From NCBI RefSeq assembly GCF_000953825.1, contig NZ_BBUL01000077.1, positions 1 to 45,539 of the forward strand: DNA of 45,539 nucleotides, read 5' to 3'. The notes under the pieces are model-generated. The model saw nothing but the letters and a program-made list of their open reading frames with translations, had not been told where the DNA came from and ran no database searches. Shown here in pieces: positions 19,403 through 27,917 of this stretch (within the stretch, counting starts at the first letter, position 1; each line of letters begins with the position of its first letter). The position numbers and the translations under genes were made by a program. The DNA comes from Cellvibrio sp. OA-2007 (GTDB lineage: Bacteria; Pseudomonadota; Gammaproteobacteria; Pseudomonadales; Cellvibrionaceae).

Positions 19403-19472
19403 TTGAACGCCAGCAAATGTCTTATCAATGGCAAATAGCCCTAATAATAATTACTCACACGAGACTAATTCC

Positions 19473-20120
19473 ATGCGCAATCTTCTCATCAAACTGCTAA
19501 AAACATTACCCTCAGTTGCCCTTGTTTGCTTCCTATCGCCACTCACTAGTCAGGCGCAAAACACGCTTAATCCTAATTATTTTTATTTGGTCAAAGGCGA
19601 GTTAATTGGCCGCAGTATTTCACTCGGCGATCCCAGCAATTGGAGCACAAGCTTGCAAGGGCGCGAGGGAAAATCAGCAAGTAGCAAAGTGGCTGTAGCC
19701 CCAACCGACTTTAAAGCGAAAGGCGATGCTATTCAAATAACTTGGTCGCGCAAAAAAATGCAAGGGAACTTGGGGCTCTATGGTAATGCAATTGATTTAT
19801 CCAAGTTTAAAGACGCTGCATCATTAACTATTGATATGCGTGTCGATGTTAAACCAGATAAGGACGTAAAAATCGGACTGGACTGCGGCTACCCTTGCCG
19901 TGCCGAACTGAGCATCAATAAAATGATCAAAACCATGCCCAAGGGTGAATGGTTTTCTCTGCCACTTCCACTGAATTGCTTTCAGAGCGACAATTTTGAC
20001 CTGAGTAAAATTGTTGGCCCGTTTAGCATTGGAACAGAGGGAAAGTTTACTGTAAGTATCACCAATATCCGCATAGAAAAATTGCCGGATGGTGACAAAG
20101 GCTGCGCCGCTAACGAGTAA
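19473..20120 (+). CDS. Small exported ExoP-like galactose-binding-fold protein
   Basis: About 215 residues. The signal peptide ends near SQA-QN (residue 29). The mature part resembles, from recall, the C-terminal ExoP/galactose-binding-like domain attached to some gammaproteobacterial GH3 exo-glucanases: GRSISLGDPSNWS, DAIQITWSRKK, LTIDMRVDVKP, GLDCGYPCRAEL, LPLPLNCF and ITNIRIEKL. Here it has no catalytic domain attached. Four or more Cys suggest disulfides. ATG at 19473 was preferred over 19428 because it begins the signal peptide and has a GAGA site. It has its own promoter and faces the halogenase operon tail. It may be a secreted sugar-binding helper; no function is proven. Confidence 0.75.
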   Translation: MRNLLIKLLKTLPSVALVCFLSPLTSQAQNTLNPNYFYLVKGELIGRSISLGDPSNWSTSLQGREGKSASSKVAVAPTDFKAKGDAIQITWSRKKMQGNLGLYGNAIDLSKFKDAASLTIDMRVDVKPDKDVKIGLDCGYPCRAELSINKMIKTMPKGEWFSLPLPLNCFQSDNFDLSKIVGPFSIGTEGKFTVSITNIRIEKLPDGDKGCAANE

Positions 20121-20206: not shown

Positions 20207-21712
20207 TTATTCCGCTTTACAGTTATCCGCTATATATCGTGTGTGCGTAGGCATAAAATCAATGCACTTATTGATGACCTGCTCGTACGCTTTGAACCTT
20301 TCTGCCAGCTCAGCCAAAGGCATTGAATCTACTGCCGGATGGTACTCTTCCGCTTGAATCCCCTGCCCCTCAAAAACGGCGAGCCAACTCGGAGTGCTAA
20401 ATAACTCCTCGTTTTCTCGATAAATTCGCCCAGTGGAAACATAAAGTTTGATTTTCTCGCGCAAATATTCAGGTATTTCCATGCTGCGACAATAGTTCCA
20501 AAAATCAGAATCTGTGCGTTCAGTAGCCTTGTAATGCAAGATTAAAAAATCACGAATGCGCTCATACTCAAAAACCGTATTTTTGTTATATAGCTCTGCA
20601 CCGTCTTCCATAAAACGCCGCGATGGAAACAAATTAATCAACTTGGAAATTGCTGTCTGAATCAAATGGATGCTCGTAGATTCCAACGGCTCCAAAAAGC
20701 CGCTGGAAAGGCCGATTGCAACACAATTTTTATTCCAAAACTTCACGCGGCGACCCGTTTTAAAGCGAATCACACGAGGGTCAGCGATGACGGCGCCATC
20801 CAAGTTTTTTAACAGTACTCCTGTTGCCTCATCGTCGCTCATGTACTGACTTGCATACACATGCCCGTTTCCAGTTCTATGCTGTAACGGTATACGCCAT
20901 TGCCACCCAGCTGTGTGCGCAGTAGCGCGAGTGTAAGGAATTGGCTCTTCAATTTTCTCACAAGGGGCAGCCACTGCACTATTACAAGGAAGCCAATGCG
21001 ACCAATCTTCAAACCCGGTTTTGAGCGCGCCTTCAATTAACAGGGCACGAATTCCAGTGCAGTCGATAAAGAAATCGCCTTCTATGACAGCACCACCCAC
21101 AAGAGACAATGATTTTATATAACCACTATTTTCACATAGCTCAACCGAAGAAATTTTGCCTTCTGTACGAACAACGCCACGAGCCTCTGCATAACCTCGC
21201 AAGAATTGCGCATAACGGCCCGCATCGAACTGAAATGCATAACCAAAATCAGACAGAGGTGAACCATTGATATTGAGCGGTCGAGTAAACTTTTTGTGCC
21301 GCGCCGCCATGGTGGCAATAGAGTAACTTTCCAAACTCGAGGCTAATCCGCTACTTTTTAGTTTTAGCCAGTACTGATGAAATGGAAACGCATTTATGTC
21401 TTCACCATAAGAACCAAATGGGTGAATATAACTCTGACCTATTTTTTTCCAGTTAATAAACTCAATCCCCAACTTAAATGTTGCCTGAGTTTTTTTCATG
21501 AATTCATTTTCGTCAATTTCCAGAATTTGATTAAACTTTTGGATATGAGGAATTGTTGCCTCGCCCACACCAATAGTTCCAATCTCTTCCGACTCGACTA
21601 GATGCACATCATAATTAGTACATCCCAGCACCTTACTAAGCGCCGCGGCAGTCATCCAGCCCGCTGTACCACCACCGGCAATGACTATTTTTTTAATTTT
21701 ATTATCACTCAT
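20207..21712 (-). CDS. Flavin-dependent tryptophan-halogenase family protein (third of three)
   Basis: About 501 residues. The FAD-binding N-terminus reads IAGGGTAGWMTAAAL, followed by GVGEATIP (about 48-55). Lys80 in ATFKLGIEF is at the place of the catalytic Lys of PrnA/RebH. The halogenase signature WxWxIP is present as WQWRIP, and EPLESTS holds the Glu/Ser pair of the active site. All hallmarks of an active enzyme are therefore kept. ATG at 21712 has GGAT upstream; a GTG three codons earlier is less likely. It is the last gene of the receptor-halogenase operon, 32 bases after its divergent paralogue. Substrate is unknown; relatives near TonB receptors act on free indoles in vitro. Confidence 0.92.
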   Translation of the reverse strand: MSDNKIKKIVIAGGGTAGWMTAAALSKVLGCTNYDVHLVESEEIGTIGVGEATIPHIQKFNQILEIDENEFMKKTQATFKLGIEFINWKKIGQSYIHPFGSYGEDINAFPFHQYWLKLKSSGLASSLESYSIATMAARHKKFTRPLNINGSPLSDFGYAFQFDAGRYAQFLRGYAEARGVVRTEGKISSVELCENSGYIKSLSLVGGAVIEGDFFIDCTGIRALLIEGALKTGFEDWSHWLPCNSAVAAPCEKIEEPIPYTRATAHTAGWQWRIPLQHRTGNGHVYASQYMSDDEATGVLLKNLDGAVIADPRVIRFKTGRRVKFWNKNCVAIGLSSGFLEPLESTSIHLIQTAISKLINLFPSRRFMEDGAELYNKNTVFEYERIRDFLILHYKATERTDSDFWNYCRSMEIPEYLREKIKLYVSTGRIYRENEELFSTPSWLAVFEGQGIQAEEYHPAVDSMPLAELAERFKAYEQVINKCIDFMPTHTRYIADNCKAE

Positions 21713-21744
21713 AATATCCACACTGAAATCCAGAGTAAGGGTAG

Positions 21745-23238
21745 TTACTTAAGTATTGCGTACTTACCTAAAATCTCATCTTCATCAGAAAGTTGGGCAG
21801 CCAGATTTGAATTCACCATGCGCATTTGACCCAAACGCTTAACAACCAATTCCAAATTGCAGCCATTTAATAGAACATCGTGCTTTTCAGGCCAATAGTT
21901 ATTCCCCAACAACAACGATACCCATGAGCCAGGCATCCAAGTTTCGTATTCTTCGAACGCCAACTTGCCTCGCTCTTTAAATAGGCTAAGTTTTCGCTGT
22001 AGCTCAGCGGTGCGCGGAATTTTGCTAGTGCAAGACCAAAACCCAGAAGATTCGGCGGCACCTAATAATAAATTGAGCTGCTGATAATCCAGCACTCGAG
22101 CATATTCATCGGATGTCAACTGATTATATTGTTGCGCAGAAAAATCGTTCACACCCGCAGCGGAATACAAATCAATAAAGCGTAAAACACCACTTTGTAC
22201 ATGATGTAAATAAGAAAAGGTAAGCTCGGTAAAATTACCCGCAGCGGCACCTATTGCAAGGCAGTTTTTTACCCAAAATCTTTCCCTTCTGCCAGGCACG
22301 ATAGTCAATGGCTGCACAGCATCCGACAACTCAACACCAGCGAAATTTATTGCAGCGGTCATTGCTGCATCATCAGACTCATACTCGCTGTTATAGGTTA
22401 GCGAGTACAACGTTTTATCTTTCAATGGAATCGATTTTAGCCAGCCCCCGCGACACACTGACAAATCAGTACACAATCCTGACTTGGCTGCACCGCCTAC
22501 AAGATCGATCTGCTTATTAACGGGCAATTCTTTATCCCATTTTAAAAACTTATCGCCTGGCAACTGCCGCACTAAAACCGAATCACTGCCACTACAATCA
22601 AAAAAGAAATCTCCACCAACCACTTCGCCAGAAGTCAGCACTAGCGCTTTAATATTGCCATCGGCATCAAGATTTAAATGATCCAATTGGCCGCAAATCA
22701 CTTCCAAGTGTTTTCTCACAGCACATGTTTGCATCAACTGGCTATATTGCGAAAGATCAACATGCAAGGAGTAATCTAAGTTAAAACCCTGCTCAACTAA
22801 GTCTTTATTGAGAAACCCAAACTTTTTTGCTGCGGCAGCTTGCGCGGCTAAAGAGTACGCATCAAAAGCCGTTGTATCACCGCATTGATGTAACAAAACT
22901 GCATATTGATGAAAATCAATACCATCAAGCATGCTGCCGTAATTACTAAAACCATGAATAAAGTTTTGCCCCGGTTTGGACCAATTTTTATACAGTGCTC
23001 CAAGCTTAAACGTGGCCGATGTTTGCCCCATAAGCTCCCGCTCAGAAATCCGCATACTGGCATGAAACCGGCGTAAAGAAGTAAATCCCGAGTCAGCGAT
23101 CGAAGGCTCTTTCGTATTCACGCCAGGGTTAACAAGCACAACTTTGAGAACATCTACCGTATAAGCATTTGTAAGCGCGGCAGCCGTAACCCAGGCGCTC
23201 ACGCCTCCGCCATAAATAACAAGTCGATGAGAGGTCAT
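21745..23238 (-). CDS. Divergent tryptophan-halogenase family protein, probable loss of catalytic motifs
   Basis: 497 residues, full length and uninterrupted. It aligns with its two neighbours over the whole length but lacks their hallmarks. The FAD loop is GGGVSAWVTA (GW replaced by AW), GVGEATxP is replaced by SIADSGFTS, WxWxIP becomes WLKSIP, and EPLESTS becomes FTELTFS. Only Lys78 (ATFKLGALY) of the active site remains. Its start overlaps the stop of the preceding halogenase (ATGA), so translation is coupled. A non-catalytic partner or an enzyme of changed chemistry are both possible. Intact length and coupling speak against a decaying pseudogene. Confidence 0.85.
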   Translation of the reverse strand: MTSHRLVIYGGGVSAWVTAAALTNAYTVDVLKVVLVNPGVNTKEPSIADSGFTSLRRFHASMRISERELMGQTSATFKLGALYKNWSKPGQNFIHGFSNYGSMLDGIDFHQYAVLLHQCGDTTAFDAYSLAAQAAAAKKFGFLNKDLVEQGFNLDYSLHVDLSQYSQLMQTCAVRKHLEVICGQLDHLNLDADGNIKALVLTSGEVVGGDFFFDCSGSDSVLVRQLPGDKFLKWDKELPVNKQIDLVGGAAKSGLCTDLSVCRGGWLKSIPLKDKTLYSLTYNSEYESDDAAMTAAINFAGVELSDAVQPLTIVPGRRERFWVKNCLAIGAAAGNFTELTFSYLHHVQSGVLRFIDLYSAAGVNDFSAQQYNQLTSDEYARVLDYQQLNLLLGAAESSGFWSCTSKIPRTAELQRKLSLFKERGKLAFEEYETWMPGSWVSLLLGNNYWPEKHDVLLNGCNLELVVKRLGQMRMVNSNLAAQLSDEDEILGKYAILK

Positions 23239-24782
23239 TGGCGCCCTCCGTATAAACTCATTAACGCCCTCGGACGCCCATTTGTTTTAGCTTGATGCTG
23301 CTCTAGAAATACGTGATGCGCAGGCATTTGCATCGCAGCGCGATCAATAAGCGCCTCTATTTCCAACATTGTTTTTTCCAACTGTGAATTAGTCATCCAA
23401 TTAACGCGTGGGTCATAAGCACTCGGCACCACTCCCTGCCCGAGATATACGGCAACCCAACTAGGCTCCAAAAATAATCCCCCCTGATATTCAACCACAT
23501 GCCCACGCTCGCGAAACAGCGCCATTTTATGAGCGAGCTCATCGGGAATTGACATGTTTCGGCAATAATCCCAAAAAGGAGCATCGTTACGCTGGGTCGC
23601 ATGATAGTGGAGAATAAGAAAGTCCCTGACTCGCAAATACTCCATATCCATTAAACGGTTAAACTCATCGACTCCGGCTAAATCAAATTTTTTGTCTGGA
23701 AAAAACTCTATCAACTTCATTATTGCAATTTGAATTAGATAGATACTTGTCGATTCAAGCGGCTCGAGAAATCCACCCGACAAGCCAATTGCAACGCAGT
23801 TTTTATTCCATGCTTTTTTTCGCTTTCCAGTAGTAAATTGTAGAAACTTAGGATCGGCAATCAACTTTCCATCGATATTACTCATCAAGGTATCGCAGGC
23901 GTCTTGATCAGTTATAAACTCACTGCAATATACATGGCCATTACCCGTGCGATGGCGGAGCGGAATCCGCCAACGCCATCCAGCAACTTGTGCAATTGCC
24001 TTCGTGTAGGGCAATAGCGCCCCGTCCAACTCGGAAGGCGCAGCAACAGCTCTATTGCACGGCAACCAGTGGCTCCAGTTTTCATAGCCTGTTTTAAGTG
24101 TTTGCTCTATGAGAACTCCGCGAAAGCCAGAACAATCAATGAAGAAGTCGCCGCCGATTACCGCTCCAGTTTCAAGCTGCACCGAGCTAATTTCGCCATT
24201 ATCGCGCTGATTAACTGCAACCACTTTTCCTTCTTCACGGACGACCCCAAGGTTTTCACTGTATTTTCTTAGGTAGGATGCATACATACCGGCATCTATA
24301 TGGAAGGCATAAGAATAGGTCGAAAAAACTGACCGCTCATCACTCATGGGGAACATAAACTTTTGTTGTGCTGCTGCAACAACAGGGAGCGAATAATAAT
24401 CTATGGACTTACCCAATCCCTGAAAATGCTGCCTTAGCCAGTAATGATGAAATGCAACGCCATTGATTTCCCGGCCATACTCACCAAATGGGTGAATATA
24501 TGCATCGCCCATCTTGCCCCAATTAGAAAACTCAATGCCCATTTTATAGGTTGCATTGGTTGCCGCCATAAATTCAGCTTCATCAATTCCAAGGGTTTGG
24601 TTAAAAAAGCGCAAATGCGGCAGCGTTGCTTCACCCACGCCGACAGTACCAATAGCCTCAGATTCAATTAATGTAATAGCGTAGCTTTTATTTTTGAGAA
24701 AGTGAGCAAGCGCAGCCGCTGTCATCCAACCAGATGTTCCTCCACCAATAATTACAATTTGTTTTATTTGTTCTTCCTGCAT
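23235..24782 (-). CDS. Flavin-dependent tryptophan-halogenase family protein (first of three)
   Basis: 515 residues. Motifs in order: IIGGGTSGWMTAAAL for FAD, GVGEATLP (about 48-55), ATYKMGIEF with the expected catalytic Lys80, WRWRIP (about residue 270) and EPLESTSIY with the active-site Glu and Ser. It is closest to the third gene of the cluster. It lies 96 bases after the TonB receptor gene, behind a strong terminator hairpin, and overlaps the next gene by four bases. Flavin reductase must be supplied from elsewhere, as none is encoded here. The natural substrate is unknown. Confidence 0.92.
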   Translation of the reverse strand: MQEEQIKQIVIIGGGTSGWMTAAALAHFLKNKSYAITLIESEAIGTVGVGEATLPHLRFFNQTLGIDEAEFMAATNATYKMGIEFSNWGKMGDAYIHPFGEYGREINGVAFHHYWLRQHFQGLGKSIDYYSLPVVAAAQQKFMFPMSDERSVFSTYSYAFHIDAGMYASYLRKYSENLGVVREEGKVVAVNQRDNGEISSVQLETGAVIGGDFFIDCSGFRGVLIEQTLKTGYENWSHWLPCNRAVAAPSELDGALLPYTKAIAQVAGWRWRIPLRHRTGNGHVYCSEFITDQDACDTLMSNIDGKLIADPKFLQFTTGKRKKAWNKNCVAIGLSGGFLEPLESTSIYLIQIAIMKLIEFFPDKKFDLAGVDEFNRLMDMEYLRVRDFLILHYHATQRNDAPFWDYCRNMSIPDELAHKMALFRERGHVVEYQGGLFLEPSWVAVYLGQGVVPSAYDPRVNWMTNSQLEKTMLEIEALIDRAAMQMPAHHVFLEQHQAKTNGRPRALMSLYGGRQ

Positions 24783-24813
24783 GGACTAACCCCACTAAAG
24801 AATTGTTATAAGC

Positions 24814-24849
24814 AAAAAAAAATGCACACGGCAATAATGCCGTGTGCAT
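24814..24849 (-). terminator. Strong intrinsic terminator between TonB receptor and halogenase genes
   Basis: On the minus strand ATGCACACGGCA (ending 24838) and TGCCGTGTGCAT form a perfect 12-bp stem with a 4-base loop, followed directly by a run of T. It lies inside what otherwise looks like one operon, so it likely sets a high receptor to halogenase ratio. Confidence 0.92.
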
Positions 24850-24878
24850 CCTTAGCTCTCAACATCAACAATCCTGAA

Positions 24879-27800
24879 TTAGAACTGACCCTTCAAGACA
24901 ATTGAGAAACGACGATCATTGATAAAGTAGTTACGAGGAATAACCGAACCTTCTTGAGTAACTTGCATTTTGGTCCAAGTAACCTCATCCATCAAGTTCG
25001 AACCTTCCAAACCAATTTTGAAGTTGTCATTGATAGTATAGAAAATCGAGCCATCTAACTGACCAGACGCCTGAGCATAAATTGGCAGCTTAGTAATAAC
25101 GTCACGTGTAGTTAACAAATAATCTGAGCGCCAGTTATAGGCCAAGCGAACAGATAAATCGTCTTTTTCATACATACCCACGATGTTATAGGTAGTTTCC
25201 GACATGCCTTGCAATGGCAAATCACTAAAGGCCGGAGTGAAGCCAGCATCAGCGCTACCCGGTGGATTTGCAGGGTCAATGTTGCTGTTTGGCGATGTAC
25301 CACTTACATCCAACAGAGTTAAGTTCAATTGCAGACCTAAACCATCAAACGGTGCTGGCAACATATCATAAAACTGCTGATAACCCGCTTCAAAACCAGT
25401 AATAGAGGCATCAACATCTTTGTTAACCGGCAAATCCATCAATACGTTGCGAGTAACGCCATTGTTAGTTACTGTGGTTTCCACTGCTTCATTAGCAAAG
25501 AAGTTGCTCATGTCTTTGTAGAAAACACCAGCAAAGACAGAGCCAGCATCCGCAAAATACCATTCAACCGCAGCATCGTAATTAGTAGACTCCATTGGTT
25601 TTAGGTTGGGATTGCCTCCACTACCCTTGTACTCAAAGGTTACATTAGTTGGCGGTAAAGATTCACTAGGGCGAGTTAATGTAGGAGTTGCACTGATGGA
25701 GGTGTAATTACGCAAGTTACCGATATCAGCAAATGAAATAGCCTCCGAGACCGCAAAACGCGCTTGCACATCATCAGCTATTGAATAACGCAAGTTAAGA
25801 CTAGGCAAGGCTTTAGTAAATGAAGCAGTAACTGTGCCGATGCTAAGGGCGCCATTGCTGAATTTTTGATCTTCTGCAAGTTGAGCCGTATTACAGCTTA
25901 CACATTTCGCAATAGCATCGGATAGATTAGCATCCCACTTAGCAGGTAATGCGTTACCGCCAGTAGACTCCGTCTCAACTTTAACTAAACGCACTCCGAC
26001 ATTACCGGTCAAACGCTCTTCGCTATCTGCAAAATTAGCCTGCAGATAAATAGCTTGGTTGCGCTCAGTCGTATTGGTCAACTCGGCCAAAGTATAAAGG
26101 CCGCCATCGTGGGCGGCATCTCTGTAACCTGCCGGTTTATAACCAAACGGCCTAGTTGCCGCAAGAAAATTGTCGTAATTAGTAATTAGAGCCTCGGAGG
26201 CAGCCAAAAATTGCCCGCCCTCTACACCGCTCTTATTGCCCTTACGGAAATGGCCACCTGCATAACTAAACTGATCGAAAGCAATATTATGATCGTAAGA
26301 AACACCATTTTTGCTGTTACCGTCCCACGGAGTATTATCCTGTAAGCCAGTAAAATACTTGCGGCCATTCTTTGGTTCCTCCCCCGCCCAGTTCTCAGAG
26401 AGATTACCCCAATTGTATTGCGACCATTTAACGTCTTGCTGGCGCTCTGAGAAGCGGACACCAGCCTCAACAGATTGCAGCCAGCCATTATCAACTTGAT
26501 ATTCAGCATCTAACTTAATCGCAAACTCGTCGCCTTCGCTGTCTTCAAGGTGATCCATTGCTGAACGCCAATAATAGTTGGCAGGATCAGTAAAAAATGC
26601 CTCCGAGCTAACGCCAGCATCAGGTGAAGTCATAAACACAGTAGGACGATCAGAGGTGAAATCGAACTCAGTATTGGCACGCACACCGCTCTGGATACTC
26701 AGATCGATCGAATCAGTGGATGCTTTCACATACTGCACATCACCAGTCAACTTCAACTCATCTGACGGAGTGAACTCAAGACGGAACGAAAAGTCTTCAA
26801 CCTTAGAATTGGTATCTGAAAAGCGTGAAGTGGTGGTGTAGGAGTCAACATTGTTGACTTCACCCTTAGTCACATAAAGCCCATTGGCTGAGAGATTGGA
26901 ATAAGTGCCAATTTTATCGTCTGACTCTATGTTGTGCTCTAACCAATTGCGGCCAGAATCAGAGTAGACATATTCAACTGTAGCAAGCAATGTATCATCA
27001 GGATTGCGCCATTGCCCTACCAAGGATCCGCCATTACGCTCGCGTTCCTGAATTGCCGAGGTAATACGACCATTGATCGGAGCAAAACGTGTGATCGTTT
27101 GACCATCTACCATAACATTGGTGTTTTGAAATCTCTCTTCTGCTGTTAACTCTCCATTGCCATCAATGTTATTACCAACCTGTCCATAAGCAACCCCATC
27201 AGTGCGACTAGTTAACTCAGAGGTAGCCAAACTAATCAAGAAACCAAACTCCCCTGCATCGGTATCCCATCGATCACTGAACAAACCTGAGATGCTTGGC
27301 TTTGTCTCTTCAGACAAGTCGGCGTAGTTGGCTGCAGCGCTAAATGCTAACTGACGATCCGAAGAGTCGAACGGCTTACGGGTATTCAAATTAATTGTGC
27401 CGGAAATCCCGCCTTCAATCATTTTAGCGCTTTGACTTTTAAAGACTTCAACCTTCGCCATTAACTCTGGCGGAACATCTTGAAAGCTAAGGCCGCGACC
27501 GCTGTTAGCCGAAAAAGAGTCACGACCATTAAATTCACTGCGAGTTTGCGGCAGACCACGAAGAGTCACACCGCTACCTTCGATAGAAAAGTGGTCAGGG
27601 TCATTTCTACCAGCAAAACGCTCGATAGAAACACCAGGCACACGCTGCAGTGACTCGAGAACACTTTTATCAGGCAATGAACCAATGTCAGATGCAGAAA
27701 TAGCATCAACAACAGTCGATGACTCACGTTTTATATCTTGTGCGTTTTGCAAGCTTGCACGCACACCGGTAACCAAAACCTCTTCGGTGGCACTGCTATT

Positions 27801-27917
27801 AGCTGGCGCATCTTGCGCGAAGGATGGTGCACCCATCGCCATAATGCAGACAGCCAACATAGATTTCTTGAACTTAGTAGCTTGTTGTGGATCTTTTTGA
27901 TTCTTATGGAAAACCAT
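24879..27917 (-). CDS. TonB-dependent outer-membrane receptor (Xanthomonas/Caulobacter-type)
   Basis: About 1012 residues. The signal peptide ends at SFA-QD (about residue 34). The plug starts with EEVLVTGVRASLQNA and DAISASDIGSLPD, then LQRVPGVSIERF, the pattern of the large receptor subfamily frequent in Xanthomonas, Caulobacter and Cellvibrio that imports plant glycans. The barrel ends in FSIVLKGQF with terminal Phe as required for outer-membrane insertion. ATG at 27917 has AAGGGG upstream at nine bases; the frame open to 28082 has no signal-like start. It heads the halogenase operon. A carbohydrate, perhaps a xylan product, is the likely cargo, but this is inferred from neighbours. Confidence 0.95.
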   Translation of the reverse strand: MVFHKNQKDPQQATKFKKSMLAVCIMAMGAPSFAQDAPANSSATEEVLVTGVRASLQNAQDIKRESSTVVDAISASDIGSLPDKSVLESLQRVPGVSIERFAGRNDPDHFSIEGSGVTLRGLPQTRSEFNGRDSFSANSGRGLSFQDVPPELMAKVEVFKSQSAKMIEGGISGTINLNTRKPFDSSDRQLAFSAAANYADLSEETKPSISGLFSDRWDTDAGEFGFLISLATSELTSRTDGVAYGQVGNNIDGNGELTAEERFQNTNVMVDGQTITRFAPINGRITSAIQERERNGGSLVGQWRNPDDTLLATVEYVYSDSGRNWLEHNIESDDKIGTYSNLSANGLYVTKGEVNNVDSYTTTSRFSDTNSKVEDFSFRLEFTPSDELKLTGDVQYVKASTDSIDLSIQSGVRANTEFDFTSDRPTVFMTSPDAGVSSEAFFTDPANYYWRSAMDHLEDSEGDEFAIKLDAEYQVDNGWLQSVEAGVRFSERQQDVKWSQYNWGNLSENWAGEEPKNGRKYFTGLQDNTPWDGNSKNGVSYDHNIAFDQFSYAGGHFRKGNKSGVEGGQFLAASEALITNYDNFLAATRPFGYKPAGYRDAAHDGGLYTLAELTNTTERNQAIYLQANFADSEERLTGNVGVRLVKVETESTGGNALPAKWDANLSDAIAKCVSCNTAQLAEDQKFSNGALSIGTVTASFTKALPSLNLRYSIADDVQARFAVSEAISFADIGNLRNYTSISATPTLTRPSESLPPTNVTFEYKGSGGNPNLKPMESTNYDAAVEWYFADAGSVFAGVFYKDMSNFFANEAVETTVTNNGVTRNVLMDLPVNKDVDASITGFEAGYQQFYDMLPAPFDGLGLQLNLTLLDVSGTSPNSNIDPANPPGSADAGFTPAFSDLPLQGMSETTYNIVGMYEKDDLSVRLAYNWRSDYLLTTRDVITKLPIYAQASGQLDGSIFYTINDNFKIGLEGSNLMDEVTWTKMQVTQEGSVIPRNYFINDRRFSIVLKGQF

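Follow-up and report, generated by a model that had tools for sequence, protein, structure and literature searches.

A motif-poor halogenase relative as the probable partner of one flavin-dependent halogenase lineage in TonB receptor loci

Introduction

To our knowledge, no natural role has been settled for the halogenases whose genes lie beside TonB-dependent receptors. The window analyzed here, i.e., positions 1 to 45,539 of contig NZ_BBUL01000077.1 of Cellvibrio sp. OA-2007, carries one such locus, in which a receptor gene is followed by three halogenase-family genes, the middle one full length yet poor in the motifs of the family. What is the role of this middle protein, and to which of its neighbors, if any, does it belong?

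FADH2, O2 and halide give HOX at the flavin, from where it passes through a tunnel to the substrate site and a Lys residue, while a Glu residue orients and activates it (PMC5945002).

Results

The gene array in the window

Open reading frames and matches to PF04820 and TIGR01782 confirmed the four genes (TBDR, hal1, halM and hal3) at the positions given by an earlier, sequence-only reading (Table 1). The receptor is of the TonB-Xanth-Caul type, as it scores 637 bits in TIGR01782 against a curated cut-off of 310. Pairwise identity is 53% between hal1 and hal3, 30% between halM and hal1, and 29% between halM and hal3. Because no signal peptide is visible by eye in hal1, halM or hal3, the three proteins probably work in the cytoplasm. 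The plus strand of the window carries a neighboring glucuronoxylan set (GH10-CBM15, GH43, GH115, enolase-like, GH43, Exop_C), and a stand-alone Exop_C domain protein (19428-20120, plus strand) is convergent with the array.

Table 1. Features of the halogenase array and their positions in the window
Feature	Position	Strand	Basis
TBDR, first gene of the array	24879-27917	-	TIGR01782 637 bits; Plug and barrel domains; ATG at 27917 from ORF
hal1 (C1), canonical flavin-dependent halogenase, 515 aa	23235-24782	-	PF04820 645 bits; all five motifs; within C1 clade
halM (P), motif-poor full-length halogenase relative, 497 aa	21745-23238	-	PF04820 286 bits; orthologues in same gene order in two congeners
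hal3 (C2), canonical flavin-dependent halogenase, 504 aa	20207-21721	-	PF04820 641 bits; all five motifs
ATGA overlap of hal1 stop and halM start, 4 nt	23235-23238	-	Read from ORFs
C-terminal tail of hal1, MSLYGGRQ	23238-23261	-	[SN]LY[GE] tail pattern
Codon of hal1 Gly435, C1-diagnostic loop position (BrvH E441)	23478-23480	-	Alignment and PMC5945002 numbering
Codon of halM Lys78, catalytic Lys position (BrvH K83)	23005-23007	-	Alignment
Codon of halM Thr340, replacing the catalytic Glu (BrvH E349)	22219-22221	-	Alignment
Codon of halM Glu432, loop Glu absent from hal1	21943-21945	-	Alignment

The genome is rich in both families. It has 25 PF04820 matches, and no full-length one scores lower than halM; TIGR01782 gives 44 matches at E <= 0.001, of which 28 are whole receptors over the cut-off and one more is in two pieces. 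Comparison of the coordinate lists of this 4.6-Mb genome placed 19 of the 23 full-length PF04820 matches in line with a same-strand TIGR01782 receptor. One congener has up to 34 PF04820 matches, some of them partial.

Motif state of the three proteins

The definition of a flavin-dependent halogenase used here comprises membership of PF04820 together with GxGxxG, the FAD-loop GE, the catalytic Lys, WxWxIP and the catalytic Glu. Both outer proteins have all of these, and they retain GGGTxGW, GEAT, the Lys, WxWxIP and EPLEST, as had been read earlier; by sequence, hal1 and hal3 are canonical halogenases of known kind. The description of the middle protein as motif-poor and full length was equally accurate. 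The PF04820 profile fits halM over its full length (residues 6-458), and the protein retains Lys78, the glycines that open the FAD motif and the final IP of WxWxIP. Nevertheless, its motif columns read GGGVSAW, ADSGF, ATFKLG, GWLKSIP and FTELTFS, so that the third Gly of GxGxxG, the FAD-loop GE (AD in its place), the second Trp of WxWxIP (WLKSIP) and the catalytic Glu (T340 in its place) are gone. Judged on its residues, halM is a member of the fold family that fails the catalytic definition and is hence not filed as a halogenase; nor can it be expected to make HOX.

Close relatives in the genus

The genus set consisted of 21 genomes, including that of the window. A close halM orthologue (match at E <= 1e-80) was found in only two of the 20 congeners, with 57% and 35% identity. 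At the two loci, L029 and L030, the TBDR-hal1-halM-hal3 order is shared, and the middle gene is motif-poor in both. By eye, the neighbors in L029 resemble the Exop_C, GH43 and enolase-like genes of the window, and an Exop_C protein (L029:2945-3682) is convergent with the array there too, but not in L030.

Regions around the best C1 hits were additionally taken from 16 genus genomes besides that of the window, the choice being made by the C1 hits themselves. A canonical gene followed by a motif-poor one was present in all 16, mostly as TBDR-C1-P-C2 or TBDR-CPCPC (C, canonical gene; P, motif-poor gene; C1, the canonical gene directly 5' of P). In L144 and L146-L149 the order is C1-P-TBDR-C2, i.e., C1 and P stay joined where the receptor separates C2, and the array of L148 ends in P before the receptor. 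With the window, all 17 genomes read at this level, out of the 21, show C1-P.

As a check not guided by C1 hits, we considered the 131 rows of PF04820 matches at E <= 0.001 in five congeners. Each of the nine motif-poor genes directly followed a canonical gene of the same strand, and six of the nine also had a canonical gene immediately 3'. Eight of the nine are full length and score below 340 bits, and the ninth is very divergent; the motif-poor count took in no hit of 340 bits or more, and weak partial hits were left out, as was a split gene (G007:C1:3618619-3619994), taken as a low-scoring piece. The divergent gene, G005:C1:1651089, matches with only 73 and 38 bits in two stretches, and its 5' neighbor consists of two overlapping stretches. 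That region (G005:C1:1649552-1653911) thus holds three genes: a canonical gene in two overlapping stretches, due to a break or a sequencing error, the very divergent P, and a C2 that is intact. Congener hits of 359-445 bits may belong to a second halogenase subtype, seen in L015, L019-L022, L086 and L106, which is characterized by GEGTW, K then QG, GWxWDI and EPLEA.

A recurrent arrangement in Alpha- and Gammaproteobacteria

For a wider survey, P was defined as an ORF keeping at most two of the five motifs. GTDB contigs were scanned, and 81 loci were read, namely 78 of the best-scoring 80 loci plus the window, L029 and L030. Among the matches listed, canonical genes stood alone in 45 cases and in pairs in 17; there was one canonical-P pair (L069), and 32 arrays had at least three genes. 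P was the second gene in 28 of these 32 listed arrays (9 CPC, 16 CPCC, 1 CPCCC and 2 CPCPC). The other four listed arrays were CCC by score (L065 and L074) or contained unresolved ORFs (L062 and L097), which proved to be P on a second look. Among the matches listed for the 81 loci, P was never first, nor last in arrays of at least three genes. The first typing of the listed matches put P at none of the 45 single genes, although the "single" gene of L109 was later found to precede a divergent P. The sequence-only reading had suggested surveying related operons for a motif-poor member, and such a member indeed recurs, directly 3' of the C1 lineage.

In total, 49 other distinct motif-poor relatives occupy places comparable to that of halM. 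The resulting counts on 50 P omit the duplicates L031, L032, L094 and L104; no pair among the 50 P is more than 95% identical, and among the C1 one pair is (L066 and L068). P is retained from Alpha- to Gammaproteobacteria as open full-length frames. The fixed co-occurrence of a presumably dead paralogue with a presumably active one is among the features expected of an obligate enzyme-pseudoenzyme pair. An Alpha-type P was found in one of 398 genomes in a phylum-wide search, and this class is therefore rare; with one Alpha-type P as query, plasmids yielded nothing at E <= 1e-40. No natural C1-P fusion was present among ORFs of at least 700 aa in the loci collected.

Translational coupling of hal1 and halM had also been proposed, and the 4-nt overlap bears it out. 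As evidence special to C1-P, however, coupling was rejected, since start and stop codons overlap at 30 of 50 C>P junctions and, at nearly the same rate, at 22 of 41 C>C control junctions (7 of 44 for P>C).

Motif loss and selection

Among the 50 distinct P, the catalytic Glu and the FAD-loop GE are kept in none, WxW in two, GxGxxG in 12 and the Lys in 11, so that the Lys of halM is not a trait of the P family. Motif loss in P is partly a matter of construction, as at most two of five motifs were allowed, but this does not determine which motifs are lost. The canonical proteins of the same arrays had all five motifs in 110 of 110 cases; the 50-P set is therefore set apart by a gap and not by a gradient.

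We next consider whether these genes are decaying. The dN/dS ratio of P (NG86) was 0.07-0.31 in six of eight pairs: 0.18 for window/L030, 0.22 for L066/L068, 0.27 for L051/L060, 0.31 for L038/L077, 0.07 for L150/L154 and 0.10 for L144/L146; it was undefined for window/L029 and L155/L157 because of saturated dS. At the same time, the dN of P exceeded the dN of neighboring genes in all eight sets. By the measure of these ratios, P evolves fast yet under purifying selection, and purifying selection on the presumably dead member is another feature expected of an obligate enzyme-pseudoenzyme pair. That halM is a relic of gene duplication heading for loss is thus very improbable. The faster change of P (57% identity between window and L029, against 81% for hal1 and 82% for hal3) and the small number of close orthologues would agree with such a fate, but dN/dS ratios well below 1 and open full-length frames retained from Alpha- to Gammaproteobacteria speak against it. 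Likewise, the sequence-only reading would have been undermined if halM were an isolated, decayed gene that relatives lack or carry in disrupted form; halM is not such a gene, even though its close orthologue occurs in only two of 20 congeners. The decayed-copy reading was accordingly rejected on the grounds of purifying selection and conservation.

P belongs to the C1 lineage

In a tree of 155 rows, P formed one side of a branch with a support of 93, with long-branch warnings from the tool. In the same tree, an exclusive clade (support 98) contained 27 of 29 C1 and, in addition, two genes counted as C2 and C1 at once, the outliers being L069 and L078. With FastTree and 228 rows without P, 49 of 50 C1 fell in one clade of 52 with a local support of 99. 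The three further members (L062, L097 and L109), first filed without P, also precede one; thus, all 52 members of the clade precede P, and only the C1 of L069 falls outside.

The warnings of the tree tool about joined long branches raise the alternative that the single P clade is an artefact and that P arose several times from different halogenases, with no common partner function. Additionally, P-like genes follow enzymes outside the C1 clade in L069 and L074. We regard this alternative as quite unlikely, because less diverged intermediates (12 rows with support 99, including the middle gene of L074) also fall on the P side, and because the C1 clade predicts P by itself and contains no row with a long-branch flag. 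The P-lineage or P-like genes at L074:6454-7974 and L069:9470-10969 follow enzymes without the C1 loop change described below and are possibly early or independent stages.

Co-divergence was evaluated in 44 C1-P-C2 triplets by partial rank correlation on p-distance ranks with 500 permutations. The correlation of P with C1 given C2 was 0.62, a value reached in 0 of 500 permutations, whereas that of P with C2 given C1 was 0.05, with 131 of 500 permutations as high; the test is limited by shared descent and by old paralogy among C1 and C2. As far as these distances tell, P co-diverges with C1 and not with the next enzyme, C2.

A loop signature of C1 and its test on fresh loci

BrvH residues 432-444 form a short loop at the substrate site; M442 and F443 in this loop match RebH residues in contact with the five-membered ring and C-beta of Trp (PMC5945002). 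Based on the halM/BrvH and halM/hal1 alignments and on the M442, F443 and S447 numbering of that paper, Gly435 of hal1 corresponds to Glu441 of BrvH. Of the 50 C1, 48 have Gly in column 435, the exceptions being L042 with Ser and L069 with Glu; the three C1 recognized late have Gly as well. Among the 178 other canonical rows, an acidic residue (Glu or Asp) stands there in 157, and among the 50 P in 40, with Glu in 34 and Asp in 6. The P of L069 therefore stands beside a Glu-type enzyme. By sequence, hal1 has everything for the HOX step, but its substrate loop is altered.

The signature was then applied to fresh loci from hal1-type searches in 244 genomes of the order of the window and 196 genomes of the order of an alphaproteobacterial genome. 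These gave 58 canonical loci (28 and 30), reduced to 55 by dropping three non-Gly loci used before (L197, L211 and L215). They reach only 1,500 bases past the match, and neighbors were sought within 250 or 400 nt. With Gly at 435, a P-type ORF came next in 14 of 14 loci; under the strict motif rule the count is 13, as the P of L203 has three of the five motifs. With Glu, Asp or Asn, a P-type ORF came next in 0 of 41. Column 435 of these 14 P is Glu in 11 and Asp in one, and the catalytic Glu is kept in two (L203 and L214). The P of L195 retains GGGVAGW and GEAT, and that after L163 is weakly recognizable, by 12 bits plus place and size. In L190-L193 and L196, P has only 337-414 aa, with the loop Glu kept in all five. 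The C1 clade, Gly435 and the P neighbor represent one inherited trait, and the counts are therefore not independent events. Read in this way, Gly at 435 is a single-clade trait, a validated marker and not the product of many independent inventions.

A further trait of C1 is a C-terminal [SN]LY[GE] tail after a variable linker, present in 20 of 50 C1; of the 176 remaining canonical proteins whose 3' end is intact, none has it. SLYG-like tails occur in the window, L144-L147, L153, L155, L157 and others, and look like a candidate docking peptide.

Two further alternatives can be weighed against these data. P could serve the receptor locus on its own, binding or sensing a ligand without contact with C1, its adjacency reflecting co-expression alone. 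The frequency of receptor ORFs would suit this role, since one lies within 5 kb in 41 of 46 loci with P; of the five exceptions, L034, L039 and L059 have little or cut upstream sequence, and L092 and L069 do not. Nevertheless, the position and co-divergence of P track C1 and not C2, and Gly435 is seen only before P (51 of 51 rows; two C1, L042 and L069, are without it), which makes such a role rather improbable. P could also be an active flavoenzyme with changed chemistry instead of a pseudoenzyme. GxGxxG is present in 12 of 50 P, L195, L203 and L214 retain parts of the FAD or catalytic motifs, and the Alpha/Alteromonad class has its own invariant residues. In contrast, the FAD-loop GE and the catalytic Glu are both absent from all 50 P, and a gap at the WxW stretch marks four of the fresh P (L190, L191, L193 and L196; 345-414 aa). 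On balance, we consider activity of this kind unlikely.

Discussion

The proposed partnership

Taken together, the absence of FAD loop and catalytic Glu across the P family, the purifying selection, the fixed 3' place, the co-divergence and the reciprocal loop difference lead us to propose that halM is probably a conserved pseudo-halogenase and a dedicated partner of hal1. Motifs and conservation in relatives thus support the earlier idea of a receptor-associated module with two canonical enzymes and one probably non-catalytic partner. To this idea, the comparisons of sequences add that the partner goes with the lineage of hal1 specifically, that the arrangement is widespread, and that this lineage has its own loop change.

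In the proposed mechanism, C1 and P would form a heteromer in which C1 would make and deliver a hypohalous species, and P would recruit, position or orient the substrate, or stabilize C1. The C2 enzyme, hal3, would be a second, self-sufficient halogenase. A more specific version, possible but to be taken as tentative, is a split halogenase in which C1 keeps the flavin chemistry without the loop Glu, P keeps the loop Glu without the chemistry, and the two act only as a C1-P pair, their substrate being a protein or peptide tied to the TonB receptor.

Candidate substrates of the proposed pair are the receptor polypeptide itself, some other peptide and an aromatic compound taken up by the cell. 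The suggested link to aromatic-decorated xylan did not hold up, as the array of L030 sits by eye among seeming histidine genes and that of L144 has a GH18 gene and an AraC regulator as neighbors in Pfam. Of ten array-neighbor genes tested with Pfam, four were Cupin_8 (JmjC-like), a family that includes protein hydroxylases, and on this account the neighborhood leans towards a theme of protein modification. These Cupin_8 genes (L145:7614-8630, L148:11115-12128, L151:2953-3969 and L154:8314-9363) possibly encode a second modifying enzyme.

Relation to known systems

The best solved relatives of hal1 are 9luq, Xcc4156 (PDB 6y1w) and BrvH (PDB 6frl). BrvH from Brevundimonas and Xcc4156 from Xanthomonas campestris share the PF04820 branch of hal1. 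Both were studied as single canonical enzymes; the passages considered from their papers name no paired paralogue, and the word TonB is absent from the main texts. Bromination of indole by BrvH is slow, and the authors of that work question indole as the natural substrate; the site of the enzyme is exposed to solvent, and the open substrate site of the MibH-type peptide tryptophan halogenases is compared with it (PMC5945002). The substrate of MibH is a lanthipeptide. At the loop position, BrvH has Glu441, whereas hal1 has Gly435.

We know of no pseudoenzyme partner of the MibH-type halogenases. A parallel is offered by the trypanosomatid prozymes of AdoMetDC and deoxyhypusine synthase, in which a catalytically dead paralogue is required by the active one. 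Folds and organisms are unrelated, and the activation by prozymes is experimental, whereas that of C1 by P would be deduced from comparison.

In open-licence PubMed Central, outside which most subscription papers lie, "flavin-dependent halogenase" and "pseudoenzyme" together returned no paper. Nor did the search results from that collection, or the passages considered from PMC5945002, PMC7336383, PMC8269204, PMC10919026 and PMC11337851, describe a conserved pseudoenzyme as the partner of such an enzyme. If true, the pair proposed here would be the first of its kind as far as the open-licence literature shows.

If one halogenase lineage needs a paralogous partner, its enzymes would seem weak or substrate-less when assayed alone. 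Co-expression of the C1-P pair would be a direct test, and Gly at the position of BrvH 441 is a sequence marker for the enzymes likely to need a partner. In some bacteria that import sugars via outer-membrane receptors, a conserved look-alike devoid of catalytic residues beside a halogenase suggests that the two form a pair, and may thereby offer a route to the role of these enzymes.
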